From an uncultured Dehalococcoidia bacterium (GTDB lineage: Bacteria > Chloroflexota > Dehalococcoidia > Lucifugimonadales > Australimonadaceae), in NCBI GenBank assembly GCA_958295525.1, contig OY282355.1, forward strand, positions 2,351,931 to 2,415,930: a stretch of 64,000 nucleotides of DNA. The letters are read 5' to 3'. Below are positions 7,455 to 22,800 of this stretch, piece after piece. Numbering within the stretch: the first letter of the stretch is position 1; each line of letters begins with the position of its first letter. Both the position numbers and the translations under genes were made by a program. The notes beneath the pieces are model-generated. The model saw only the letters and a list, made by a program, of their open reading frames with translations. It had not been told where the DNA came from and did no database searches.

Positions 7455-8576
7455 CTACGTCGACGCCACCGATGCCGTCTTGAATTTGTAGTCGGGGTCG
7501 GTGTAGACCTCCGGGGGCATGCGGGACTCGAGGCCGCGCTTGGCGAGTTCGCCCTCGAAGAGTTCGCGGATCCACGGGTCTTCGTCGATGTACTCGATGT
7601 TCGTGCCTTCGGCGTTGCCCTGCTCGTCCTCGTCTTTGCCGAGGAACTGGACGGGCGGATGGAGCGCGAAGTAGCGCGCGGCCTTGTCGCCGAGGTTGAA
7701 GTGCTGGTGGAAATACTGGTCGGGCGGCGTCACGGCGCTGCCCTCGTGCCAGGGGTAGACCTTCTTCTCGCCGCCGTCCTGCGGCCACATCACGGAGAAG
7801 CCGTCGCCGCCGGGGATGACGATGAGGCGGCCGGGGCCGTGCCGGTGGGCTTTCTTGTAGGTTCCGGCGGGGAAGACGGACATATGCGCGGACAGTTCGG
7901 AGCCTGGGACGTACATAGCGATGGAGGAGCCGCCCGCGCCGCGGCTGCCCGAGGCGGTCAACTTGTCCCAAGCGAGAAGGTCGGGCCAGAAGTTGCCCTT
8001 CCAGACGGTGGAGCCGATCGCGCCCCAGGCGGAGCCGAAGTCCTTCTCGATGTCTTTGGCCTCGGAGAAGAAGTCCGCGTCGGCCTCGTCGAGGATGGAC
8101 TTGCTGACGTGGGGGTTGTTCATAAAGAACTCGGGGTCGGGGATCGTGCTCATTGCGATGGGGAGGTAGTTGAAGAAGAGGAGGCGGGTGGGGGCGTTGC
8201 CCATATTGCGGAGTTCGCACCAGGAGTTGCGGGGAATGACGAAGGCGCTGCGGTCGGACCACTCGAAGTCGCGCTTGGCGTTGCTGATCTCGCCCCAGAC
8301 CGACGCGAAGCCGCGCCCGTTCAGCACGTAGATCATCTCCTCGACGCCCAGTTTGAAGGGGGCGAGGGAGCCGCCGGCGGGAATCTCCTGCACCCGCGCC
8401 TCGGTCACGCCGCCCATATCGGTGAAGCGGATGAAGGCCGTGTCGCAGCCGCGCACGTCCCAATGGGCGAGTTCGAGCTTCCGGAGGTCTTCGACGTAGC
8501 AGTCGGAGAGGACGGGAACGCCCTTGTCGGCCTGATCCTCGAGCCAGTTGTCGTGGGTGAAGTAACTGCGAGCCAT
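7455..8576 (-). CDS. Bicupin protein, gentisate-dioxygenase-like
   Basis: 373 aa with two cupin folds, about residues 60-160 and 220-330. The second holds YKKAHRHGPGRLIVIPGGDG, with His residues in the usual metal positions of aromatic ring-cleaving cupins; the first has GVEEMIYVLNGRG. Start at MARSYFTHDNW is preceded by a GGAGAG ribosome site; a longer reading would add a non-conserved N-terminus. A ring-cleavage or other dioxygenase role is plausible given the Rieske oxygenase close by on the same strand, but the substrate is unknown. Confidence 0.75.
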   Translation of the reverse strand: MARSYFTHDNWLEDQADKGVPVLSDCYVEDLRKLELAHWDVRGCDTAFIRFTDMGGVTEARVQEIPAGGSLAPFKLGVEEMIYVLNGRGFASVWGEISNAKRDFEWSDRSAFVIPRNSWCELRNMGNAPTRLLFFNYLPIAMSTIPDPEFFMNNPHVSKSILDEADADFFSEAKDIEKDFGSAWGAIGSTVWKGNFWPDLLAWDKLTASGSRGAGGSSIAMYVPGSELSAHMSVFPAGTYKKAHRHGPGRLIVIPGGDGFSVMWPQDGGEKKVYPWHEGSAVTPPDQYFHQHFNLGDKAARYFALHPPVQFLGKDEDEQGNAEGTNIEYIDEDPWIRELFEGELAKRGLESRMPPEVYTDPDYKFKTASVAST

Positions 8577-8671
8577 TTTCTTCTCTCCTGCTGCGGTTCC
8601 GATTATCGCGGGCCTACAAGTTCCGTCCGTCAAGAGGGCCGGGCGCGGTTCCGTTGATCTGCTCCCGCGCA

Positions 8672-9037
8672 GTCTAGCCTAACACGGCGCGGCGGAGGGC
8701 GGAGTTGGCGCGGGTCTGCCAGCCGGGGCCTTCCTCGCGGAGGCGGGCGATGACGTCGGCGTCCAAACGTATGGTCACCCGGGTCTTGGGGCGAGCCTTG
8801 CGCGCCCGCTCCCGCCTGAGGGACTCCTCTACGTGGGGAGCGACCTCAAAGGTGGGGCGCATTCGGGCCCAATCCTCGTCCGTGAGTTCCTTCGCGTCCG
8901 GGTTGGCGGCGATGGCCGCCCTGATAGCCGCGTCTTCCTCGGGCGTGGGGCTGATGTGATTAGGTTTGAGCGGCGGCATAGCGTCTAGCCTAACACGGCG
9001 CGGCGGAGGGCGGAGTTGGCGCGGGTCTGCCAGCCGG
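8672..9037. repeat. 55-bp exact direct repeat (8672-8726 and 8983-9037)
   Basis: The 3' end of the intact BrnA-like gene, including its stop, is present twice in the same orientation with no mismatch. It marks the tandem duplication that produced the truncated paralogue. Confidence 0.9.
8674..8979 (-). CDS. BrnA-like antitoxin, orphan
   Basis: 101 aa. The C-terminal part VTIRLDADVIARLREEGPGW followed by QTRANSALRRAV is the ribbon-helix-helix DNA-binding region of the BrnA antitoxin family. No BrnT toxin gene lies next to it on either strand, so it is an orphan or acts on a toxin elsewhere. The last 55 bp of the gene region (8672-8726) are repeated exactly at 8983-9037 just upstream, at the end of a truncated paralogue. 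Confidence 0.78.
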   Translation of the reverse strand: MPPLKPNHISPTPEEDAAIRAAIAANPDAKELTDEDWARMRPTFEVAPHVEESLRRERARKARPKTRVTIRLDADVIARLREEGPGWQTRANSALRRAVLG

Positions 9038-9208
9038 CTCCCGCCTGAGGAACTCGGCGAGACGGGGGTCGACCTCAAAGGCCGGACGCATCCGCGCGAA
9101 GTCGTCGTCCGTGAGTTCCCGCGTGTCGGGGTCGGCGGCGATGCCCGCGTTGATCGCCGCGTCTTCCTCAGGCGTCGGGAAGGTGATGCGCCGTTCGAGT
9201 TGCAGCAT
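8990..9208 (-). pseudogene. Truncated, frameshifted BrnA-like paralogue
   Basis: The first 50 or so residues (ITFPTPEEDAAINAGIAADP, RELTDDDFARMRPAFEVDP) are clearly homologous to the BrnA-like protein at 8674-8979. About 29 residues covering the DNA-binding strand (VTIRLDADV region) are deleted, and the remaining tail, exactly shared with the neighbour over 55 bp, is read one base out of frame (ending RPAPTPPSAAPC). It should therefore be non-functional as a DNA-binding antitoxin. Confidence 0.75.
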
Positions 9209-9248
9209 AGCGCCTTGCCTCTCTGTCATTGCCTTCCGCAGGCATAGG

Positions 9249-9464
9249 CTAGAGGGCGCGCACCTCCGTCATTGCGTCGTCGAGGAAGACGCCGTAGATG
9301 ATGTCGGGGTCGGCCTGCACCGCGTCGCCGGGCTTGTCGGGGCCGAAAGGCGAGTCGATGATGGCCACCGGGACGGCGCCGTTGGCGAGAGGGCCCGTGA
9401 CCTCGGCGGTCGCCCCGTTGGCGAGTTCCACTTTGTCGCCGGCCTTGAGGTTCTCCGCGCCCAT
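9249..9464 (-). CDS. Small protein coupled to the Rieske oxygenase, unknown
   Basis: 71 aa (MGAENLKAGDKVELANGATA then EVTGPLANGAVPVAIIDSP). Its ATG overlaps the oxygenase stop by one base (TGATG), so it is translated from the same message. It looks like a single small beta-barrel of KOW/SH3 type, with AGDKVELANG near the start. No known family is recognised. It is too small and lacks cysteines for a ferredoxin, so it is not the missing electron carrier. Confidence 0.65.
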   Translation of the reverse strand: MGAENLKAGDKVELANGATAEVTGPLANGAVPVAIIDSPFGPDKPGDAVQADPDIIYGVFLDDAMTEVRAL

Positions 9465-10834
9465 CAGGCGCCGACTCCCTGGCCGATCTCCTCGCGGCGC
9501 TTGGCGGCGTCCTCGCCGCCCGAGACGCCCCGGTCGTTCATTATGGGGCTGTACTTGCTGGCCATGCCCTGCCGCTCGAACGCGAACGCTTGGCCTCCGG
9601 CGAGTTCGGCGCGCTTCGACCAGTGCTCGGTGTCCATGCCCAGGTAGGCGTTGCGCTCGGGGTCGCGGAAGGTGTTGATGGGGTCGCCCCCGTCCTCCAC
9701 GATGCGAACCTGCTCCTCCAGCATCCGCCGGAACATAATGACGCCCTTGTCGGAGCGGCCGAGATGCTCGCCGGTGCGGTCGGCCACCGCGCCCTGCGTG
9801 ATCCACGCCGCGACGTCCTGCGCGGAGTTGGAGTCGAGGATTTCAAAGCGGACGCGCCCGTCGTCCTTGAGCGTGATGAGGGGCGGAGAGAAGAGAGGGA
9901 CGTCCTCGTCGCGCTGGTCGGGGTCGGCGGAGTTCTTCTTGGGGTGGCACATCACCCACCAGTGGCCGGTTCGCGTGTCGTCGAGAGGAACGCGGATCTG
10001 GAAGGAAGGCCCGACGCCGCGCGCGATGCCCGGAGCGTCGTCGGGGTCTTTCCACGTGTCGACGGCGACGCCGCTGCCGCCCTGCCGCAGGAAGTAGGGG
10101 AAGACGATGGGGTGGCCCTGCGCCCACTCGGGGTCGTCGTAGCCTCCGCCCTTGACGAGGCGGCGCTTGATGATGCCGTACTGGAACTTGTCGAAGCCGA
10201 TGCGCACGTTCTCGTAGCGGGGACGGAGTTTGTCGCCCTTGCCGTTGACGGTGGCGATGTAGTTGCCCCACTCGCCGTGCAGCCACTCGGAGTGGACGGG
10301 GTCGAGGGAGTTCTCCTGGCACTGGAGCCAGTTGCACGGGAGTTCCGTGTAGCCGATGTCGCGGACGACGCCGTCAACGGCGAAGACGTCCCAGTTGGGG
10401 AGGAGGGGGGCGGGGGCGGGGCCGAGGTAGGCGAAGATGAGGCCGGACTTGACCTCCAGCGGGTAGGTCTTGATGCGGACCTTGTCCTTGAAGTGGTTGT
10501 CCGGCGCCTCGGTCTCCTCGTAGGGCTGCTCGAGGCAGCGGCCGGTCTCGTCGAACATCCAGCCGTGGTAGGGGCAGCGGATGCCCTCGTCCGTGGGAAT
10601 GCCGTAGACCATGCCCATCCGGCGGTGGGGGCAGTAGTTGTCCACGAGGCCGTAGACCCCGGACTTGGACTTGTAGAGGACGAGGTCCTCCCCGAGGATG
10701 CGGATGGGCTTGGTGGCGCGGTCGTTCATCATGGGAACGGCGGCGATGGGATGCCAGTAGCGGCGCATCAGTTCGCCGGTGGGGGTTCCCGGCCCGACTC
10801 TGGTGAAGCGGTCGTTCTGTTCGGCGGTGAGCAT
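9464..10834 (-). CDS. Rieske non-heme iron oxygenase, large subunit
   Basis: 456 aa. The [2Fe-2S] ligands are C68-P-H70 and C87-P-Y-H90. The mononuclear iron site is D178-x2-H181-x4-H186 in ENSLDPVHSEWLHGEWG. This is the alpha-only layout of phthalate 4,5-dioxygenase-like and related aromatic hydroxylases/demethylases, which need a separate reductase; none is encoded here. The start at MLTAEQNDRFTRVGPGTPTG is family-typical, and longer reading upstream is not. Such oxygenases are abundant in marine SAR202-type Chloroflexota. Substrate unknown. Confidence 0.92.
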   Translation of the reverse strand: MLTAEQNDRFTRVGPGTPTGELMRRYWHPIAAVPMMNDRATKPIRILGEDLVLYKSKSGVYGLVDNYCPHRRMGMVYGIPTDEGIRCPYHGWMFDETGRCLEQPYEETEAPDNHFKDKVRIKTYPLEVKSGLIFAYLGPAPAPLLPNWDVFAVDGVVRDIGYTELPCNWLQCQENSLDPVHSEWLHGEWGNYIATVNGKGDKLRPRYENVRIGFDKFQYGIIKRRLVKGGGYDDPEWAQGHPIVFPYFLRQGGSGVAVDTWKDPDDAPGIARGVGPSFQIRVPLDDTRTGHWWVMCHPKKNSADPDQRDEDVPLFSPPLITLKDDGRVRFEILDSNSAQDVAAWITQGAVADRTGEHLGRSDKGVIMFRRMLEEQVRIVEDGGDPINTFRDPERNAYLGMDTEHWSKRAELAGGQAFAFERQGMASKYSPIMNDRGVSGGEDAAKRREEIGQGVGA

Positions 10835-11070
10835 CGTTGTGGCCTCCGCGCGCGCGTCGCGCAAGTTCAGGTTGCGACGGGAGCATAGCACAAGCGCGCG
10901 GAGAATGCGAGCGGCGGAACGCGGGGTTGGGCGGCGGGTTCGGAGAGAGCCAACGGCTCTCTGTCCCCTCGGAGCAAGGATATGGTGTATTCGCGCAGCA
11001 TTTTGGAGCGCAGCGGGCGGAGGCGGCGCGCTCCCGGTTCCGCCCTGCGTAAATGGACGGGCGCAAACGC

Positions 11071-11099
11071 TTGACAAGCCGTCCGCGTTCGCATACTAT
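11071..11099 (+). promoter_or_regulatory. Promoter of the 16S rRNA unit
   Basis: TTGACA (11071-11076), 17-bp spacer, TACTAT (11094-11099). Transcription would begin near 11106, giving a leader of about 160 nt before the mature 16S. The flanking gap 10835-11265 holds no other gene; it contains the leader with several short GC-rich hairpins. Confidence 0.8.
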
Positions 11100-11160
11100 A
11101 AGCGGGTTCCCCGTTCAGGGGAGCCGGGGACGCTCCTGTGGAGGGCTCCCGTGCAGGCGC

Positions 11161-11188
11161 CTTAACAAGTGAATAGTGGAAGGTAAAG
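11161..11188 (+). other. 16S processing stem, 5' arm
   Basis: GTGAATAGTGGAAGG (11169-11183) is the exact reverse complement of 12911-12925 downstream of the 16S, and the flanks (CTTAAC, AAAG) pair with 12929-12933 and 12907-12910. The long stem encloses the whole 16S and is the expected RNase III cleavage structure. Confidence 0.8.
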
Positions 11189-11265
11189 CGCCGCGCGCCT
11201 CCGTTTAGGCGGAGACGCGCAACCCTGTCAGTCTTGGCGAAACGGGTCTTTCGAGGCCCGCGAAC

Positions 11266-12769
<1,504 letters not shown>

Positions 12770-12906
12770 GGGAGCCCTTCATTGGGAACCCAGGTCGGTG
12801 CGCCATCGGAGCGCCGCCTAACCCGGACGATCGGTGAGCTTCTGCTCCCTCGTTCCGGCGACGGCGGACTCATCCCCTCCCCGGAGGGCGAGGCGCCAAC
12901 CAAAGT

Positions 12907-12933
12907 CTTTCCTTCCACTATTCACCGGTTAAG
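12907..12933 (+). other. 16S processing stem, 3' arm
   Basis: CCTTCCACTATTCAC (12911-12925) pairs perfectly with the leader at 11169-11183, with extra pairing on both sides. Its position just before the terminator shows that the primary transcript ends shortly after the 16S. Confidence 0.8.
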
Positions 12934-12940
12934 GCCAAAG

Positions 12941-12967
12941 AGAGGCCGACCGCGCAGGTCGGCCTCT
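12941..12967 (+). terminator. Terminator-like hairpin after 16S
   Basis: Perfect 11-bp stem (left arm AGAGGCCGACC, right arm 12957-12967) with a 5-nt loop, followed only by a short, weak T-rich stretch (CCGTCTATATC). Probably ends the rRNA transcript. Confidence 0.65.
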
Positions 12968-13012
12968 CCGTCTATATCAGGCCGCGCGAAGCGCGGGGCC
13001 GGAGAGAGCGAA

Positions 13013-13492
13013 ATGGCCGGCAAGACGCCCAGAGAACCGGCGAAACGCGCGGATGCGGCCGCCGCCAAACCAGCCGGCGCGGAGCCGGCGCTCCTCTCGG
13101 GCGGCAATCCGCAGATCCCGAAAGGCGACGGCGACGCCCCCGTGCAAGCCTACATCGCCGCAATGCCCGGCTGGAAGAGCGGCCTCGGTCGCCGCCTCGA
13201 TGACCTCATCGTCCGCAACGCCCCCGGCGTCCGCAAGGCCGTGCGGTGGAACTCGCCTTTCTACGGCGTCAAGGACAACGGGTGGTTCGCGAGTTATCAC
13301 GTCTTCACCCGCTACGTAAAAGTGACGTTCTTCCAGGGCGCGTCGCTCCGGCCCCTGCCGCCCGGCTCAGGCAAGGACAAGGACGCGCGCTGGGTCGACA
13401 TCCACCAGGGCGAACTCGACGAGGAGCAAATGGCCTCGTGGATCCGGCAGGCCGCCGCCCTGCCCGGCTGGAAGCACGGGACGACGCCGTAA
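13013..13492 (+). CDS. DUF1801 domain protein
   Basis: 159 aa; GGAGAG lies about 7 nt before the ATG. After an Ala/Lys-rich N-terminal tail of about 50 residues, the conserved core reads PGWKSGLGRRLDDLIVRNAP, VRKAVRWNSPFYGV, GWFASYHVFTRYVKVTFFQG. DUF1801 (YdhG/YdeI-like) proteins are small cytosolic proteins of unclear function, one member being implicated in iron transport regulation in Bacillus. Stands alone between the 16S unit and hsp20. Confidence 0.8.
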   Translation: MAGKTPREPAKRADAAAAKPAGAEPALLSGGNPQIPKGDGDAPVQAYIAAMPGWKSGLGRRLDDLIVRNAPGVRKAVRWNSPFYGVKDNGWFASYHVFTRYVKVTFFQGASLRPLPPGSGKDKDARWVDIHQGELDEEQMASWIRQAAALPGWKHGTTP

Positions 13493-13673
13493 CAAGGCGC
13501 CGCGGCGCCTCCGGCGCGCCCGGAGCGTGCTACGATTTCCCTCGCGCCGAACAAGGGCGCAGCGCCCGCCGTTCCGCCTCGGCGAGTAGCCCAGACCGCA
13601 AAGCCCGTAAGTCGCCCGCTCCCTCCATTCACACGGACGGGGGAGCGGGCGGCTTCGTTCGCGTCGCCAAATC

Positions 13674-13734
13674 TTGATATAATTCGTATCAGACCTATTG
13701 ACACGCCTGCCTCGCTTTGATACGATTCATATCA
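13674..13734 (+). promoter_or_regulatory. hsp20 promoter with two 17-bp operators
   Basis: -35 TTGACA (13698-13703), 17-bp spacer, -10 TACGAT (13721-13726). Two near-identical 17-mers of the form TGATA-N7-TATCA bracket it: TGATATAATTCGTATCA at 13675-13691, just upstream of the -35, and TGATACGATTCATATCA at 13718-13734, covering the -10. Their centres are 43 bp apart, about four helical turns. They match neither CIRCE nor HAIR. Confidence 0.8.
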
Positions 13735-13784
13735 AGTCAAGCGAGCCGCATTGGAGAGCGGCTCCGCAAGCAAGGAGGCAGATT

Positions 13785-14258
13785 ATGGCAATCGAACGCT
13801 GGAGCCCGTTCCGCGACCTCTACGCCCTCAGCAGGCCCTTCGGAGCGCGGCGCCTCTTCGCCGCGCCCTACGCAGGCGCCCGCCCCGACCGCTGGGCGAT
13901 CCCCCTCGACGTCCACCGCGATGACGGCGCCATCGTCGTCAGCGGCGCCCTCCCCGGCGTCGCTCCGTCCGACATCGGCGTGACCATCGAGGACGGCGTG
14001 CTGACCATCGAGGGGCGAACGGGCTCGGACGAAGAGCGCGAGGAGGGCGGCTACCTGCTGCGCGAGCGCCGGAACGGCGCGTTCCGCCGGTCGCTCCGCC
14101 TGCCGGACGACGTGGACGTGGACAACGCCGCCTCGACTTACGCGCACGGCGTCGTGACGATTCGCCTGCCGATGGCGGAAGGCAAGAAGGCCCGGCGCCT
14201 CACCCTCGACGTCGCCGGCGAAGCCCCGGCGCAGGAAGAGGCCGCCGCGACCGCCTAG
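13785..14258 (+). CDS. Small heat-shock protein, Hsp20/alpha-crystallin family
   Basis: 157 aa ATP-independent holdase chaperone. The alpha-crystallin domain spans about residues 40-140 with ALPGVAPSDIGVTIEDGVLT and the closing ASTYAHGVVTIRLPM (the usual A-x-x-x-N-G-V-L box, here AHGVV). AAGGAGG precedes the ATG at good spacing. Single gene under the two-operator promoter just upstream and ended by a strong terminator, so it is probably stress-induced on its own. Confidence 0.92.
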   Translation: MAIERWSPFRDLYALSRPFGARRLFAAPYAGARPDRWAIPLDVHRDDGAIVVSGALPGVAPSDIGVTIEDGVLTIEGRTGSDEEREEGGYLLRERRNGAFRRSLRLPDDVDVDNAASTYAHGVVTIRLPMAEGKKARRLTLDVAGEAPAQEEAAATA

Positions 14259-14284
14259 CCGCGGCGCGGACACGGGCCGACGAC

Positions 14285-14313
14285 GGACGCCCCGCGAAAT
14301 TCGCGGGGCGTCC
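14285..14313 (+). terminator. Rho-independent terminator of hsp20
   Basis: Perfect 14-bp stem with a 1-nt apex (so effectively a shorter stem and small loop), left arm GGACGCCCCGCGAA, followed by CCGTTTT. Confidence 0.85.
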
Positions 14314-14649
14314 CCGTTTTCAACCTACCGCGCTGCTCGCCTGCTCAGAATCTCCCCGTTATGCGCTTCCGGCGGCGGAGCGCTGCATAACTTCCCGCGC
14401 CCCACGCGGGCTCCCGCCTGCGGAGGGATGACGTCTATCGCTGGGAGTCCCGGCGGAACGGGCGCATCCCCCTGCCGCCTTCCGCAGGCGCGGCGCCCCG
14501 CCGATTTGACGGCGCGGGCGGGCGTCCGTATCCTCTACGCGCCGCCGACCCATGCGGGCGGCGAGCCTCATCCGCAAAGGAGCGCCCCTGCAAGCCGCCC
14601 GGATCCCTAGCGCGACCGGGACGGCGCCGCCGCAACGGGCTTCCTCTCA
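14314..14649. other. Gene-poor gap before the P1 peptidase
   Basis: No convincing gene. Around 14402-14430 there is a degenerate copy of the dispersed palindromic repeat (CGGGCTCCCGCCTGCGGAGG). No clear promoter was found for the downstream operon, though one must lie here or further upstream. Confidence 0.5.
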
Positions 14650-15663
14650 ATGAACGGCACGCTTACGGACACGCCCGGGCTGATCGCCGGACTCTACACC
14701 GACGCCGCCAACGGCACGGGCTGCGCCGTCGTGCTCGCGCTCGCAGGCGCGGTCGGCGGCGTGGACGTTCGCGGCGCGTCCCCGGGGACGCGGGAGACCG
14801 ACCTGCTGCGCTCCGAGAATACGGTCGCCCTCGTGAACGGCCTCGTTCTGAGCGGCGGAAGCGCCTACGGGCTGAGCGCGGCGGACGGGGTGATGCGTTT
14901 TCTGGAAGAGCGGGGCGTTGGCCACCGCGTCGGGAACCACATCGTGCCCATCGTTCCGGCGGCCATCATTTTCGACTTGGGCGTGGGCGACGGGGCCGTC
15001 CGTCCCGGGCCCGCCGAGGGCTACGCCGCCGCCTGCGCCGCGACTGCGGACCCGGTGGCCCAGGGCAGCGTCGGCGCGGGAACCGGCGCGACGGTGGGGA
15101 AGGCGCTGGGGCGCGAGCGCGCGATGAAGGGCGGGCTTGGAAGCGCGTCGCTCGACTTAGGCGAAGGCGTCGTGCTCGCCGCGCTCGTCGTCGTCAACGC
15201 GGTTGGCGGCGTGCACGACCCGGACTCCGGCGCGCTGCTGGCAGGGCCTCGCGGCGCGGACGGCGCGCCTATGGAGAGCGCGGCGGTCTACGCCGACCAC
15301 GCCTACGGCGGAGGAGCGGGGCGGTCCGCGCCTCTCCCGCTCGGCAACACGACGATCGGCGTCGTCGCGACGAATCTCGTCCTGACGAAAGCGCAGGCGA
15401 ATCGGCTGGCGACGGTCGCGCACGACGGGATCGCGCTGGCGGTGAGGCCGGCGCACACGCCGCATGACGGGGATACGATGTTCGCGCTCGCCACCGGCCA
15501 AATAGACGCGCCCGAGGAGTTCACGCGCCTCTGCGCGCTCACGCCGTCGGTGGTCGCCCGCGCCATCGTGTCGGGCATCGAGCATGCGGAGAGCCTGCAC
15601 GGGTTTCCTTCTTACCGGGAGAGGAACGGGCCGGGAAGGCGGGGAAGGAGCGGGGATGAGTGA
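14650..15663 (+). CDS. P1 family peptidase (DmpA/NylC-type N-terminal nucleophile hydrolase)
   Basis: 337 aa. Members self-cleave before a Thr or Ser that becomes the nucleophile; here LPLGNTTIGVVATN puts the cleavage at N233/T234. Other family stretches are LVLSGGSAYGLSAADGVMRF, IVPAAIIFDL and QGSVGAGTGATVGK. Activities in the family include D-aminopeptidase, beta-peptidyl aminopeptidase and 6-aminohexanoate-oligomer hydrolase; which applies is not clear. It is first in a four-gene unit with the pantothenate genes and its end overlaps the next gene by 8 bp. An amidase acting on a beta-alanine conjugate would fit the neighbourhood, but that is speculation. Confidence 0.88.
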   Translation: MNGTLTDTPGLIAGLYTDAANGTGCAVVLALAGAVGGVDVRGASPGTRETDLLRSENTVALVNGLVLSGGSAYGLSAADGVMRFLEERGVGHRVGNHIVPIVPAAIIFDLGVGDGAVRPGPAEGYAAACAATADPVAQGSVGAGTGATVGKALGRERAMKGGLGSASLDLGEGVVLAALVVVNAVGGVHDPDSGALLAGPRGADGAPMESAAVYADHAYGGGAGRSAPLPLGNTTIGVVATNLVLTKAQANRLATVAHDGIALAVRPAHTPHDGDTMFALATGQIDAPEEFTRLCALTPSVVARAIVSGIEHAESLHGFPSYRERNGPGRRGRSGDE

Positions 15664-16537
15664 GCGTCCGTCGGCGGCGTTCGTGGGAGCGGGGCGCGTG
15701 GCCGGAGCGCTCGCGCCGGCGCTTGCGCGGCTGGGCTACCGCGTCGCGGCGGTGGCGAGCCGTTCCCGAGAGTCGGCGGAGCGCGTGGCGGCGCTTGCGC
15801 CCGGGAGCCGCGCTGCGACGGCGCAAGAGGCGGCTGATTCGGCGGACGCGGTGTTCGTCACGACCTCCGACGGCGCAATCGCGGACGCGGCGGCGGGAAT
15901 CGCTTGGCGGCCCGGACAGTTCGCCGTGCATTGCAGCGGCGCGCTGACGCTCGAGCCGCTGCAGCCTGCGCGGGCGGCGGGCGCCAGCGTTGGCTCGTGG
16001 CATCCGTTCCAGACGTTCGGCGGCGGCGCGCAGTTGGAGGGCGTGACGTTCGGCATCGAGGCGGAGGGGGACGCGCTCGCGTTCTTGGAGCGTTTGTCCG
16101 AGGATGTGGGCGGCCACGCGCTGCGGGTTCCGGCGTCCGCTCGCGCGCTTTACCACGCGGCGTCGGTGATGAGTTGCGGCTATCTGACGACGCTGCTGCA
16201 CGAGGCGCGGACGCTCTGGGTTCGCGCCGGGCTGCCGCCGGAGCAGGCGGCAAGGGCGATAGGCCGCCTTGCGCGGACGACGCTGGCGAATATCGAAAGC
16301 GCGGGCGCGGGCGCGGCGTTGACGGGCCCGACCTCGCGCGGCGACGCGGGGACGGTGCGCTTGCATTTGGAAGCCGCGCGCGCCGCCGCCCCGGAACTGC
16401 TGCCGCTCTACAGGGAAATCAGCCTGCGCTCGGCGGAACTGGCGCGGGAGGCGGGGCGACCCGGCGGGCTTATGGATTGGGAAGCGCTGTTCGCCGAATA
16501 CGAGGCGGATCGGAAGCAGGGAGGCGCAAGGGGATGA
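15656..16537 (+). CDS. Rossmann-like/DUF2520 dehydrogenase-type protein in the pan operon
   Basis: 293 aa. N-terminal Rossmann nucleotide-binding fold (AAFVGAGRVAGALAPALARL), a central GSWHPFQTFGG motif and a helical C-terminal DUF2520 domain (YHAASVMSCGYLTTLLHEA, TGPTSRGDAGTVRLHL). The overall plan resembles ketopantoate reductase and prephenate dehydrogenase. It lies directly upstream of panB (ATGA overlap) and panC, while no panE is present. A ketopantoate reductase role is therefore a reasonable inference; a distinct reductase, PanG, has been reported in Francisella, but I cannot verify whether this is the same family. Confidence 0.8.
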   Translation: MSERPSAAFVGAGRVAGALAPALARLGYRVAAVASRSRESAERVAALAPGSRAATAQEAADSADAVFVTTSDGAIADAAAGIAWRPGQFAVHCSGALTLEPLQPARAAGASVGSWHPFQTFGGGAQLEGVTFGIEAEGDALAFLERLSEDVGGHALRVPASARALYHAASVMSCGYLTTLLHEARTLWVRAGLPPEQAARAIGRLARTTLANIESAGAGAALTGPTSRGDAGTVRLHLEAARAAAPELLPLYREISLRSAELAREAGRPGGLMDWEALFAEYEADRKQGGARG

Positions 16538-17373
16538 GCGTTCGCGCGCGGCGGTTGCAAGAGATGAAGCAGGCGGGCGAGCCCATCGTCTGCGTCACCG
16601 CGTATGATTTCCCGTCGGCGCGGCTCGCGGACGAGGCGGGCATTCCGGTCATCCTCGTCGGCGACAGCCTGGGGAACGCGGTCCTGGGGCACGACTCGAC
16701 GCTGCCCGTCACGCTCGGCGATATGGCGCATCACACGCGGGCGGTCGTCCGCGGGGCGCGGAACGCGCTCGTGATCGCGGATATGCCGTTTATGACGTAT
16801 CAGACGAGCGCGGACGACGCGATGCGGAACGCGGGGCGCTTGCTGCAAGAAGGCGGCGCGCAGGCCGTGAAACTCGAAGGCGGAAGGACAATCGCGCCGA
16901 CCGTCCGCCGGCTGACCGAGTCGGGCGTTCCGGTGATGGGGCACGTGGGACTGTTGCCGCAGTCGGTGCATCAGACCGGGGGCTATCGCGTGCAAGGACG
17001 GACGGCGGAGCAGGCGCGGGCGCTGCTGGACGACGCGCTCGCGCTCCAGGAGGCGGGGGCGTTCGCCGTCGTGATCGAGTCCGTCCCCGGAGACGTCGCG
17101 GCGGAGGCGACGCGCAGGCTGGCCGTTCCGACGATAGGCATCGGCGCGGGGGCGGGCTGCGACGGCCAAATTCAGGTTCTGCACGACTTGCTGGGGCTGA
17201 GCGCGCGGACGCCGCGCCACGCGAAGCGGTACGCCGATCTGAGCGGCGTCATCCTCGGCGCGCTGCGGGCGTACCGCGACGACGTGATCGAGCGGCGGTT
17301 CCCCGGCGCCGAGCACACGCCGGAGGCCGAGGCGGGAGCGGTCGCCGAGGCGTTCGGCGGGGACGGCGCGTAG
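16534..17373 (+). CDS. panB: 3-methyl-2-oxobutanoate hydroxymethyltransferase
   Basis: 279 aa. First committed step to pantothenate: transfers a hydroxymethyl group from methylene-THF to 2-oxoisovalerate, giving ketopantoate, in a Mg-dependent reaction. Diagnostic motifs: VTAYDFPSARLADEAG, VGDSLGN (metal ligand Asp), VTLGDMAHHTRAV, VKLEGG, PVMGHVGLLPQSV and the catalytic Glu region VIESVP. Normal family length. ATGA overlap with the preceding DUF2520 gene and 3 nt before panC. Confidence 0.96.
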   Translation: MSVRARRLQEMKQAGEPIVCVTAYDFPSARLADEAGIPVILVGDSLGNAVLGHDSTLPVTLGDMAHHTRAVVRGARNALVIADMPFMTYQTSADDAMRNAGRLLQEGGAQAVKLEGGRTIAPTVRRLTESGVPVMGHVGLLPQSVHQTGGYRVQGRTAEQARALLDDALALQEAGAFAVVIESVPGDVAAEATRRLAVPTIGIGAGAGCDGQIQVLHDLLGLSARTPRHAKRYADLSGVILGALRAYRDDVIERRFPGAEHTPEAEAGAVAEAFGGDGA

Positions 17374-17376
17374 GCG

Positions 17377-18207
17377 ATGCGGCGTCTCTCGACGGTCGCG
17401 GAGTTGCGGGCGGCGCTGCGCGAGGCTCCGCGTCCGCTGGGGCTCGTGCCGACGATGGGGGCGCTGCACGCGGGGCACGTTTCGCTGATTCGCGCGGCGC
17501 GGAGCGAGTGCGCGGCGGTCGCCGTCTCCATTTTCGTGAATCCGCGGCAGTTCGGCCCGGACGAAGACCTCGAGCGGTATCCGCGCTCGCCGGACGCCGA
17601 CCTCGCCCTGCTGGAGCGTGAAGGCGCGGACTACGCATTCACGCCCTCGCCGGAGGAGATGTACCCGCCGGGATTCGCCGCGTCCGTTCATATCGAGGGG
17701 CCTGCGCTGCCGTTGGAAGGCGCTGCGCGTCCGTCGCACTTCGACGGGGTCGCCACGGTGGTGGCGAAACTGTTGCTGCAAGCGCAGCCCGACCGGGCGT
17801 ACTTCGGACAAAAGGACGGCCAGCAAGTCGCGGTGATCCGGCGGCTGGTCCGCGACCTGGACATTCCGTCGGAGATCGCCGCGCTCCCCACCGCGCGGGA
17901 AGCGGACGGCTTGGCGGTGAGCAGCCGCAACGCCTACCTGACGGCGGAGGAGCGGAGCGCGGCGCCGGTCGTCCACCGGGCGCTCGCGGCGGCGCGGGAC
18001 AAGTTCCGGGCGGGACAACAGAACGCGGCGGAGTTGGAGGCGGCGTGCCGCGGAATAATCGAGGCGTCGCCCTTAGCGTCGGCGGAGTACGTCGCGGCGG
18101 TCGACCCTGAGACGATGGCGCCCTGGAGCGGGCGAGGCCCGTGCATGCTGGCGGCGGCGGCGCGGATCGGAAACGTCCGCCTGCTGGACAACGTTTTGTT
18201 GGAGTGA
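17377..18207 (+). CDS. panC: Pantothenate synthetase
   Basis: 276 aa. Condenses pantoate with beta-alanine using ATP. Motifs: VPTMGALHAGHVSLIRAAR (the HxGH nucleotide site), IFVNPRQFGPDEDLERYPR, SHFDGVATVVAKLL, YFGQKDGQQVAVIRRLV and AVSSRNAYL (the KMSKS-like position). Last gene of the operon. The beta-alanine-forming panD is not in the window. Confidence 0.96.
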   Translation: MRRLSTVAELRAALREAPRPLGLVPTMGALHAGHVSLIRAARSECAAVAVSIFVNPRQFGPDEDLERYPRSPDADLALLEREGADYAFTPSPEEMYPPGFAASVHIEGPALPLEGAARPSHFDGVATVVAKLLLQAQPDRAYFGQKDGQQVAVIRRLVRDLDIPSEIAALPTAREADGLAVSSRNAYLTAEERSAAPVVHRALAAARDKFRAGQQNAAELEAACRGIIEASPLASAEYVAAVDPETMAPWSGRGPCMLAAAARIGNVRLLDNVLLE

Positions 18208-18223
18208 GGGGGCGCCCTGAGGC

Positions 18224-18262
18224 GGTTCCCGCGCAAGCAGGGGAATTCGGGGACAGGGGCGA
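18224..18262. repeat. Degenerate dispersed palindromic repeat
   Basis: GGTTCCCGCGCAAGCAGGGG followed by a GGGGACAGGGGCG tail resembles the extended form of the repeat family found elsewhere in the window, with several mismatches. Confidence 0.4.
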
Positions 18263-18282
18263 GTGGGCGACCTGCCCGCCCC

Positions 18283-19434
18283 CTAAATTTGTCCGGAGCG
18301 CTGGAGGATTTTGCCTTCGGTTGCGATAGTCGGCGCGACCACCAGTTCGGCGCGCTCGTGGAACTCGGGGATTGTCTGCGCGCCGACCATGCTCATACAG
18401 ATCTGCAGCGCGCCCACGAGGTTGTGCGTTCCGTCCGTCCGATGGCTAGGCCCGAACAGGACTTGCTCGAGGCTGGCGTGGACGCCGACGTTGACCCGCG
18501 TGCCTCGCGGAAGCGCCGGATGCGGGCTGGCCATTCCCCAGTTGAAGCCCTTGCCGGGCGCTTCCTGCGTCTGCGCGAACGGCGTTCCGATCATCACTCC
18601 GTCGGCGCCGGCGGCAATCGCTTTGCAGAGGTCGCCGCCGGTGCGGATGCCGCCGTCGGTGAGCACGGTCACGTACTTGCCCGTGCGCGCTTGGAACTCG
18701 TCCCGCGCCGCCGCGACTCCCAGCGTCGCCGACACTTGCGGCACGCCGACGCCCGTCACGTCGCGCGTCGTGCAGGCGGCGCCCGGCCCCACGCCCACGA
18801 GCACGCCGTCTATGCCTTGCTCCATCAATTCCATCGCCGCGCTCGCCGTAACCATATTCCCCACGATGACGGGCGCGTCCACTTCGCGGACGAGTTCGTT
18901 CAGCCGCAGCCCTGTGAAACTATTGGAGATGTGCCGCGCCGTCGTGACGGTGGACTGCACGACGATGATGTCGGCTCCGGCTTCAACCGCGACGGGCGCG
19001 AGCCGCTTGGCGCGCTGAGGCGTAACCGAGACCGCGGCCACCGCGCCCGTCGCTTTGATCTCCTGAACGCGCCTCTCCACCAGCGCTTCGTTGAATTCGG
19101 CGGCGTAGACGCGCTGCAGCGCGTCGGTGACGTTTTCGCGGGGGGCGGATGCGATTTCGCGCAGCGCGTCCGTTGGGTCTTCGTAGCGGCAGTAGAGCCC
19201 TTCGAGGTTCATCACGCCGAGCCCGCCCGCCCGCGCCATCAGCCCGGCGAACGCGGGGTCTACGATGGCGTCCATCGCGGAGGCGACGATGGGGATGGAG
19301 AAACTGTAGGGGCCGACGTCCAGTTGGGTGACGGAGAGTTCGGGGTTCGTGGTCACGTCGCCGGGGACGATGGCCACCTCCTCGAACCCGTAGGTCGCGC
19401 GCAGTTCCCTGACCCGAACTCCCAGTAGCGTCAT
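18283..19434 (-). CDS. guaB3: GuaB3-family IMP dehydrogenase
   Basis: 383 aa TIM-barrel protein without CBS domains. The catalytic loop is GPGAACTTRDVTGVGVPQ with the active-site Cys; it also has SIPIVASAMDAIVDPAFAGL and DGGIRTGGDLCKAIAAGADG for phosphate binding, and a C-terminal GTHNLVGALQ. GuaB3 proteins oxidise IMP to XMP or are uncharacterised IMPDH relatives, mostly in Actinobacteria, Cyanobacteria and Chloroflexota. Start at MTLLGVRVRELRATYGFEEV is family-like. Single gene with its own promoter. Confidence 0.88.
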   Translation of the reverse strand: MTLLGVRVRELRATYGFEEVAIVPGDVTTNPELSVTQLDVGPYSFSIPIVASAMDAIVDPAFAGLMARAGGLGVMNLEGLYCRYEDPTDALREIASAPRENVTDALQRVYAAEFNEALVERRVQEIKATGAVAAVSVTPQRAKRLAPVAVEAGADIIVVQSTVTTARHISNSFTGLRLNELVREVDAPVIVGNMVTASAAMELMEQGIDGVLVGVGPGAACTTRDVTGVGVPQVSATLGVAAARDEFQARTGKYVTVLTDGGIRTGGDLCKAIAAGADGVMIGTPFAQTQEAPGKGFNWGMASPHPALPRGTRVNVGVHASLEQVLFGPSHRTDGTHNLVGALQICMSMVGAQTIPEFHERAELVVAPTIATEGKILQRSGQI

Positions 19435-19468
19435 CGGCGCCCCCTCGGCGTTGCTGGTTGCGGAATGC

Positions 19469-19497
19469 AATCTAGCAAACGGCGGCGCGCGCGTCAA
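19469..19497 (-). promoter_or_regulatory. Promoter of guaB3
   Basis: On the minus strand: TTGACG (19497-19492), 17-bp spacer, TAGATT (19474-19469), about 35-40 nt before the start codon. Confidence 0.65.
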
Positions 19498-19541
19498 ACG
19501 CCGCGGGCGTCCGCCGGCCTAGAAGGGGCGAGGGCGGGTGC

Positions 19542-19570
19542 TTGCGATGATGCGGCAAGCCGCATATAGT
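19542..19570 (+). promoter_or_regulatory. Probable carB promoter with a long leader
   Basis: TTGCGA (19542-19547), 17-bp spacer, TATAGT (19565-19570). The predicted message has about 240 nt before the carB ATG. The leader contains a possible 23-codon reading frame (19599-19670) rich in Arg and Lys codons, but no clear attenuator or riboswitch. The remainder of the 380-nt gap shows nothing else. Confidence 0.5.
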
Positions 19571-19814
19571 GGTGCGCGGTATTTTGATGAGGCGCCAGTG
19601 ATGCGAACAATGTTGCGCGTACTTGAGCGCGCTGCGAAGCGCACCGGCGAGAAGAGCGGAAGCAAGCCGTGAACAAGGCGCTCCAAGCGTGCATCCCGAC
19701 CCAAGCCGCCCCAAGATGGACGCCTCTCGCGGGAACGATTGACGTCGTTGACGGCCGCGGGGAGGCGGAGCGGGCCGGATCGCCTTGCCCGCGCCGGGGA
19801 CGCAGGCTAACGGC

Positions 19815-22800
19815 ATGACCGCCCATCCTCCTCTTCGCAAGGCGATGGTCATCGGGAGCGGGCCCATCGTCATTGGGCAGGCCGCCGAGTTCGACTACGC
19901 CGGAACGCAGGCGTGCAAGGCGCTCCGCGAGGAGGGCGTCTCCGTCGTTCTCGTGAACTCCAACCCCGCGACGATTATGACGGACGAAGGAGTCGCGGAC
20001 GCGGTCTACATCGAGCCGCTGACGGTGGAGACGCTGGAGCGGATCATCGCCCGGGAGCGGCCCGACGGCCTGCTGCCGACGCTCGGCGGGCAGACGGGGC
20101 TGAACCTGGCGGTCGCGCTCCACGAGGCGGGTGCGCTGGAGCGTCACGGCCTGCGGCTGCTCGGCACGTCCATCGAGACGATCAAGACGGCGGAGGACCG
20201 CGAGTTGTTCCGCGCTTTGCTGGAGCGGCTCGGGGAGCCCGCGCCGCCAAGCGTCGTGGCGAACTCGACGGCGGAAGCGATGGAGGCGGGGCGCGCCCTG
20301 GGGCTGCCGCTGGTGGTGCGCCCCGCGTACACGCTCGGCGGAACGGGCGGCGGATTCGCGACGACGTGGGAGGAGTTGGAGGCCGTGGCCGCGAGCGGCG
20401 TCGCCGCGAGCCCCATCGGGCAGGCGCTCGTGGAACGCTCGATGCGCGGATGGCGCGAAGTGGAGTACGAGGTGATGCGCGACGCCGCGGACACCTGCGT
20501 GACGATATGCAATATGGAGAATCTGGACGCGATGGGCGTCCATACCGGCGACAGCATCGTCATCGCGCCAAGCCAAACGCTCTCCGACAAGGAGCATCAA
20601 ATGCTGCGCTCGGCGAGCATTCGGATCATCCGCGCGCTGGGCATAGAGGGCGGCTGCAACATTCAGTTCGGCCTGTCGCCGCATCCGGTCATCGGGGAGT
20701 CGCTGCCCGGAGGCGCTCCGGACCCAATGGAGTACTTCGTCATCGAAGTGAACCCCCGCGTGAGCCGGTCGTCGGCGCTGGCGTCGAAAGCGACGGGCTA
20801 CCCCATCGCGCGGGTCGCGGCGAAGATCGCGGCGGGCCGCAGGCTGGACGAGATTCCGAACGCGGTTACGCAGCGGACGAAAGCGGCGTTCGAGCCCGCG
20901 TTGGACTACTGCGTCATCAAGTCCCCGCGCTGGCCGTTCGACAAGTTCGCGCGCGGCGACCGCGCCATCGGAACGCAGATGAAGGCGACGGGCGAGGTGA
21001 TGGCGATAGACCGGGGTTTCGAGGCGGCGCTGCAGAAGGCCGTCCGCTCCATCGAACTCGGCGGGCGCACGCTGCTGTGGGAAGACCCCGAGTGGGAGGG
21101 ATTGCCCGCCGAGGCGCTCCCGCTCGATCCGACCGACGACCGCCTGTGGGCGATGGCCGCCGCGCTCCGGCGCGGAATGTCCGTTGACGCGCTGGCCAAA
21201 GCCACGCACGTGGATCCCTGGTTTCTGCATGGATTGGCGCGCATCGTGGCGATGGAGGAGCGTCTTCGGTCGGAGCCGCTCGACCGGATGCTGCTGTGGG
21301 AAGCGAAGCGCATGGGGACGCCCGACGACGCCATCGCCGCGCTGACGGGGCGGACGCGCGAAGAGGCGCGGGCGCTGCGCCGCGAAATGGGCGTAAAGCC
21401 CGTCTACAAAATGGTGGACACCTGCGCGGCGGAATTCGAAGCCGTCACGCCGTACTTCTACAGCGCTTATGAGCAGGAGAACGAGGCCGAGCCGCTGAAC
21501 GGAGAGAAAGCGGTGGTCGTCGGCAGCGGGCCCATACGGATCGGACAGGGCATCGAATTCGACTACTGCTCCGTCCACGCGGCCTGGGCGCTCAACGCGG
21601 CGGGCGTCAACTCCATTATGGTCAACTCGAACCCCGAGACGGTCTCCACCGATTTCGACACGAGCGACCGCCTCTACTTCGAGCCGCTCGACGAGGAGAG
21701 CGTCCGCGACATCATCGAGAACGAGGAAATCGGCGGCGCGTATCCCCCGTCGGTCGTGCAATTCGGCGGGCAGACGGCGATCAACCTGAGCCAGGCGATC
21801 AGCGCGGCGGGCCTGCCGATTCTCGGATCGTCGGCGGACGCGATAGACCTGGCGTCCGACCGCGAGCGCTTCGGCGGCCTGATGGCGCGCTTGGGCATTC
21901 CGCAGCCCCCGGGCGCCGCCGCGTTGTCCACGGAGGACGGCGTCGCCATAGCGGAGCGGCTGGGATTTCCCCTGGTCGTGCGCCCCAGTTACGTGCTCGG
22001 CGGACGGGCGATGGAGATCGTGGACAATCTGACGGAATTCCGCCGGTATCTCACCTGGGCTTTTGAGGCCGCCCCGGGCCGGCCTATCTTGGTCGACAAG
22101 TATCTGCAAGGCCGCGAGGTCGAAGTGGACGCCGTGGTGGACGGCGAGCAAGCGCTCATCCCCGGGATTATGGAGCACGTGGAGCGGGCCGGCGTCCATT
22201 CCGGCGACTCCATGGCGATATACCCCGCGCCGGGGCTTTCGCAGCGCGAACGCGACGCGATCGTGGACTACACGACGCGCATCGGGCTCGCGCTCGGCGT
22301 GCGCGGCCTAATGAACATCCAATACGTCATCGTGAACGAGAGCAGGCCCTTCGGCTTGACGGTGCCGGCCGACAGCGGACTCCCGTCGGTGTGCGTCATC
22401 GAGGTCAACCCCCGCTCGAGCCGCACCGTGCCTTTCATCTCGAAAGTCACGGGCATCCCGATGGTGCAACTGGCGACGAACGTAATGCTAGGGCGCTCCC
22501 TCGCGGATCAGGGGCGCGCGGGCGGCTTGCAGCCCGACCCGCCGATGACGAGCGTGAAAGCGCCCGTGTTCTCAATGTCCAAACTCACCGGAGTGGACAC
22601 CTACCTGGGCCCGGAGATGAAATCCACCGGAGAGGTGATGGGCATAGACGTGAGCCCGCGGGCGGCGGTCGCCAAAGCGCTGATGGCCGCAGGGCTGATG
22701 CTCCCGCCGGCCGGCCGGATCCTCGTCACCATCGCGGACAGGGACAAGGCGGACGCGGCGGCGTGGATCAAGGCGCTTGGCGCGATGGACTACGATCTGT

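Follow-up and report, generated by a model that had tools for sequence, protein, structure and literature searches.

Which repressor controls hsp20 in this uncultured Dehalococcoidia bacterium? The window, by which we mean the whole 64,000-nucleotide stretch of DNA that was analysed, encodes a small heat-shock protein of 157 aa (hsp20, 13785..14258, + strand), assigned to the Hsp20/alpha-crystallin family from its translation and from PF00011 (65.0 bits versus a cut-off of 20.8, E 7.1e-18). This is the sole Hsp20 gene in the genome. The initial annotation had recognised a pair of operators across its promoter and, having found them to be neither CIRCE nor HAIR, had implied a different heat-shock or stress repressor. 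Note that a 16S rRNA gene (window 11266-12766) is followed by a protein ORF and then by hsp20; no 23S gene follows the 16S, with no further Rfam match in window 8000-20000.

An operator pair at the hsp20 promoter

The promoter scan identified a single sigma-70-like promoter between 13500 and 14400, TTGACA-17-TACGAT (13698-13726, + strand), which agrees with the consensus at 10 of 12 positions. Its -35 element, TTGACA, occupies 13698..13703 and its -10 element, TACGAT, 13721..13726, with a TG just before the -10 and 58 bp from the end of the -10 to the hsp20 start codon. The paired 17-bp operators were found as described, TGATATAATTCGTATCA at 13675-13691 and TGATACGATTCATATCA at 13718-13734, sharing 14 of 17 bases and lying 43 bp apart; the interval reported for the pair, 13674-13734, ends at the right base but starts one base early, the real start being 13675. 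Adding two bases per side to these palindromes gives full-length sites that are 21-bp inverted repeats, both on the + strand: site 1 (13673..13693, CTTGATA-TAATTCG-TATCAGA) ends 4 bp 5' of the -35 and site 2 (13716..13736, TTTGATA-CGATTCA-TATCAAG) lies over the -10, so that their placement relative to the promoter was also correctly annotated. In the 64-kb window the motif TGATA-N7-TATCA has two occurrences, versus 0.00 expected from 100 shuffles; the entire genome of 2,512,416 bp also contains two, and the reversed-pattern control gave no match there. Both genomic copies are at hsp20; the motif is thus not randomly placed genome-wide.

HspR-like proteins of the genome

The genome contains three MerR_1 genes. 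The first, hspR1, is found in the arrangement dnaJ-hspR1-clpB, and the second, hspR2, in hspR2-grpE-dnaK, about 67 kb from hsp20, which is the DnaK-system gene context of an HspR. The HspR2 protein has a MerR-type HTH domain (PF13411, 55.4 bits versus a cut-off of 21.6). With the NCBIfam HspR model NF047375, whose equivalog cut-off is 105 bits, HspR1 (104.7 bits) and HspR2 (94.3 bits) both scored below the cut-off; ten relatives of HspR2 scored 94-102 bits, and 8 of 10 relatives of HspR1 passed.

In a tree of 108 domains, a branch supported at 100/99 separates the HspR1 group from the HspR2 group, the inner forks being poorly resolved because the tree is built on 67 columns. The recognition helix reads HPQTLRKYE in HspR2 versus H[AT]QTLRYYE in HspR1, and the wing has ML in HspR2 versus N plus Q, I or R in HspR1. 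Judged by its sequence, HspR2 is thus HspR-like and belongs to a separate subfamily. The nearest named records come from Dehalococcoidia and other Chloroflexota MAGs.

The third MerR gene (L004:1471-1773; genome 529766-530041) encodes a short, very divergent HspR-like protein of about 100 aa on a long branch, and no chaperone gene was present beside it within the stretch read. This distant relationship, and the lack of chaperone neighbours in that stretch, led us to set its product aside as the regulator.

The hsp20 sites share their motif with the hspR2 promoter

When the whole genome was searched for TTGAYA-N7-TRTCAA with at most one mismatch, three sites were obtained, the two at hsp20 and one in the hspR2-grpE-dnaK promoter, a count that alone is not independent evidence because the Y and R letters were picked after the hspR2 promoter had been inspected. 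At the latter site the left arm is at the same time a -35-like element, TTGACA.

A matrix was then derived from hspR2 loci outside the genus. The best upstream TTGA-N11-TCAA was taken at 26 such loci, and the 21 with a perfect core were used, leaving free the eleven positions that separate TTGA from TCAA. In these 21 training promoters the free positions read YA-YR-NNN-YR-TR, with G at position 6 in none, and arm positions 6-7 are YA throughout, save for one half with T at position 7. In the 64-kb window the matrix placed site 2 first (32.1 bits) and site 1 second (24.2 bits), the next match scoring 10.5 bits. Among the genome-wide candidates, the hsp20 sites ranked first (site 2) and third, the hspR2 promoter ranked second, and nothing else exceeded 11 bits. 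Note that scores for genome candidates, hsp20 orthologues and promoter sets were calculated with a uniform background and are hence lower than those in the window.

Within the order, the matrix hit 40 of 40 out-of-sample hspR2 promoters versus 7 of 30 dnaJ-hspR1 upstream regions, at a threshold of 14.6 bits (the maximum of 6000 shuffles); the genomes are related, so these counts are not independent events. Across 59 genomes of the order there are 101 exact matches to TTGAYA-N7-TRTCAA, versus 27 for the reversed pattern (sums of the per-genome rows). Among the 75 matches listed, which come from 31 genomes, 29 are located no more than 500 bp 5' of an hspR homologue, where 0.03 would be expected; 3 others are about 1 kb 5' of an hspR1, at the start of dnaJ. 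A search of related Chloroflexota for the motif near chaperone genes and an HTH regulator had been proposed in the initial annotation: the motif lies 5' of hspR2-grpE-dnaK, and the regulator gene there encodes a MerR-type protein.

The operator is conserved at hsp20 within the family

A site scoring 12.4-26.9 bits is present at every one of the 12 hsp20 genes in 11 genomes of the family; in the shuffle control (6000), 99.9% scored below 10.5 bits and the maximum was 14.6. The exact 43-bp pair is kept in 8 of the 11 genomes, representing six species of the genus and two of another genus, so that the motif, when looked for at hsp20 orthologues, proved to be conserved in the family together with its spacing. 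Site 2 is near-invariant within the genus and near-identical in sister species; site 1 is weaker in sister species (right arm GTAGCAG) and best in the genome of the window. Outside the family most hsp20 promoters are without the motif, and good sites were seen in a few genomes only (G270 and G084). In G084 the single HspR found is of type 2, and its hsp20 nevertheless bears a site of 21 bits. Elsewhere in the class, match coordinates from other families place hsp20 head to head with an hspR2-type gene (G089:C171, G058:C9 and G090:C133).

A HAIR-type operator with altered arms

HAIR, the operator of HspR, is CTTGAGT-N7-ACTCAAG (PMC6102357, PMC7464140), and the consensus in S. coelicolor is TTGAGY-N7-ACTCAA or TKGARTNNNYNNRAYTCA (PMC2687793). 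The HspR/HAIR system is known in Streptomyces, Mycobacterium, Deinococcus, Helicobacter and Campylobacter. With it the hsp20 element shares a 21-bp inverted repeat with 7-bp arms, a 7-bp spacer and a TTGA/TCAA core, as well as the occurrence of sites on chaperone promoters and on the repressor's own grpE/dnaK operon, with several sites per promoter. Unlike in HAIR, arm positions 6-7 are TA at both hsp20 sites and not GT, and the hspR2-promoter arms have YA at these positions, plus YR/YR within the spacer; as a further difference, HspR2 and the other HspR encoded in its genome fall into separate groups.

The better arm of each hsp20 site agrees with HAIR at 5 of 7 bases, positions 6-7 always differing. 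The CTTGA/TCAAG core is present, with one base changed in site 2 (TTTGA/TCAAG) and two changed in the right arm of site 1 (CTTGA/TCAGA). As the GT/AC of arm positions 6-7 is absent from the hsp20 sites, we classify the element as a HAIR-type variant and not as HAIR. The earlier statement that it is neither CIRCE nor HAIR is thus literally true: the letters depart from HAIR at 2 of 7 bases per half, and no CIRCE-like sequence is present at hsp20. An exact classical HAIR, considered for this locus, was found nowhere in this genome and in 1 of 301 sampled Chloroflexota genomes, a strict 14-base test from which rarity of HspR with HAIR does not follow.

The CIRCE operator of HrcA has the consensus TTAGCACTC-N9-GAGTGCTAA. 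It is likewise a palindromic operator on chaperone promoters, but its sequence and spacing are unrelated to those of the hsp20 sites. HrcA was rejected for hsp20: the genome has two CIRCE matches at up to 3 mismatches, neither of them at this gene. These two palindromes, TTAGCAGTC-N9-GACTGCTAA (L218:1501-1527 and L217:1501-1527; genome 2334579 and 1819678), both show the identical two changes from the consensus; one of them lies 5' of groES, the other next to a gene for an FmdB-like zinc-ribbon protein. The HrcA operator, too, seems to have diverged in this genome.

Proposed assignment of the hsp20 operators to HspR2

The HAIR geometry of the sites, together with their best genome-wide partner, the hspR2-grpE-dnaK promoter, suggests that the regulator is an HspR paralogue. 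The different type of repressor implied initially is not upheld, since the arrangement is exactly that of HAIR (7-N7-7 with TTGA/TCAA cores) and the partner promoter belongs to a gene for an HspR-like MerR protein. We therefore propose, with a probability of about 0.78, that HspR2 acts as the repressor of both hsp20 and its own grpE-dnaK operon, by way of a diverged operator of the HAIR type. Weighing against this are the sub-cut-off HspR score of HspR2, the scarcity of the motif at hsp20 beyond the family and the weakness of site 1 in sister species.

The main rival, which we consider unlikely, is that HspR1, alone or with HspR2, represses hsp20. In its favour, the TTGAYA-type site is present in 7 of the 30 dnaJ-hspR1 upstream regions of the order, and in G239 and G270 hsp20 is head to head with dnaJ-hspR1. 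However, the dnaJ-hspR1 promoters of the family are HAIR-like, perfectly so in G136 (14/14) and at 11 of 14 bases in this genome (G000), where the HspR2 matrix scores 1.3 bits. The well-supported split between the two groups, with its consistent helix and wing differences, also argues against HspR1, as does G084, whose hsp20 has the site and in which no HspR1 was found. Since the motif recurs in some of the order's dnaJ-hspR1 promoters, HspR1 may cross-bind. Note that in G136 (L094) the perfect classical HAIR (CTTGAGTGTCAGACACTCAAG) lies about 1000 bp 5' of hspR1, with a second site of mixed type (GTTGAGCGATGTACTATCAAT) about 64 bp away.

We give little credence to an unrelated dimeric repressor, of the TetR, MarR or GntR type or novel, as the owner of the palindromes: numerous such factors recognise palindromes of similar length, but the same 21-bp element recurs specifically 5' of hspR2 genes across the class, with the geometry of an HspR operator. 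That the palindromes arose by chance, or are promoter sequence with no regulator of their own, is barely credible, for although one half of each overlaps or abuts a promoter element, two were found with none expected and both palindrome and spacing are kept in related species, which already contradicts chance.

A proposed model for the repression of hsp20

In the model that we favour, HspR2, a MerR-type repressor of the HspR family, would bind TTGAYA-YRNNNYR-TRTCAA as dimers. One dimer would sit just 5' of the hsp20 -35 and another over the -10, on the same face of the DNA (43 bp, or 4.1 turns), and RNA polymerase would be shut out of the promoter at normal temperature. In its own operon, HspR2 would occupy one site over the -35 of hspR2-grpE-dnaK. 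Upon heat shock, the co-repressor DnaK would be drawn off to misfolded proteins, or HspR2 itself would unfold, and both promoters would be freed. We infer this release by DnaK or heat from the HspR proteins of Streptomyces and Mycobacterium, which are known to behave in this way (PMC8223512). In mycobacteria, HspR control of an Hsp20 (acr2; M. tuberculosis) and the role of DnaK as co-repressor are established (PMC8223512).

Two sites 4.1 turns apart fit an HspR, since the Helicobacter protein shows co-operative binding across 70-80 bp centred on a HAIR (PMC6102357) and the Campylobacter protein binds several HAIR-like sites per promoter (PMC7464140). Co-operative binding at the hsp20 pair would be compatible with the conserved spacing; the fixed 43 bp could also arise in part from overlap with the promoter elements and not from co-operativity.

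Discussion

The kind of system proposed here, HspR/HAIR, is already known, Hsp20 as a target included. We found nothing in the literature on HspR in Dehalococcoidia and only passing mentions of HspR with Chloroflexi; no description of a shifted operator code in a separate Chloroflexota HspR group was found, in a search of incomplete coverage that leaves room for an earlier in-silico account. More tentatively, and with some doubt on our part, the two HspR paralogues of one cell may use mutually exclusive operator codes (GT versus YA at positions 6-7) and split the regulon, HspR1 taking dnaJ-clpB and HspR2 taking grpE-dnaK and hsp20, with specificity residing in the Y/K and NQ/ML differences of the recognition helix and wing.

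The first impression, that this locus calls for a new kind of heat-shock regulator, is corrected. For the chaperone genes of a bacterial class that is large and mostly uncultured, the analysis supplies an operator code together with a likely repressor. Between the HspR groups two operator positions and two protein blocks change, and this natural pair of paralogous repressors with diverged operators is material with which DNA recognition by the MerR family may be deciphered.
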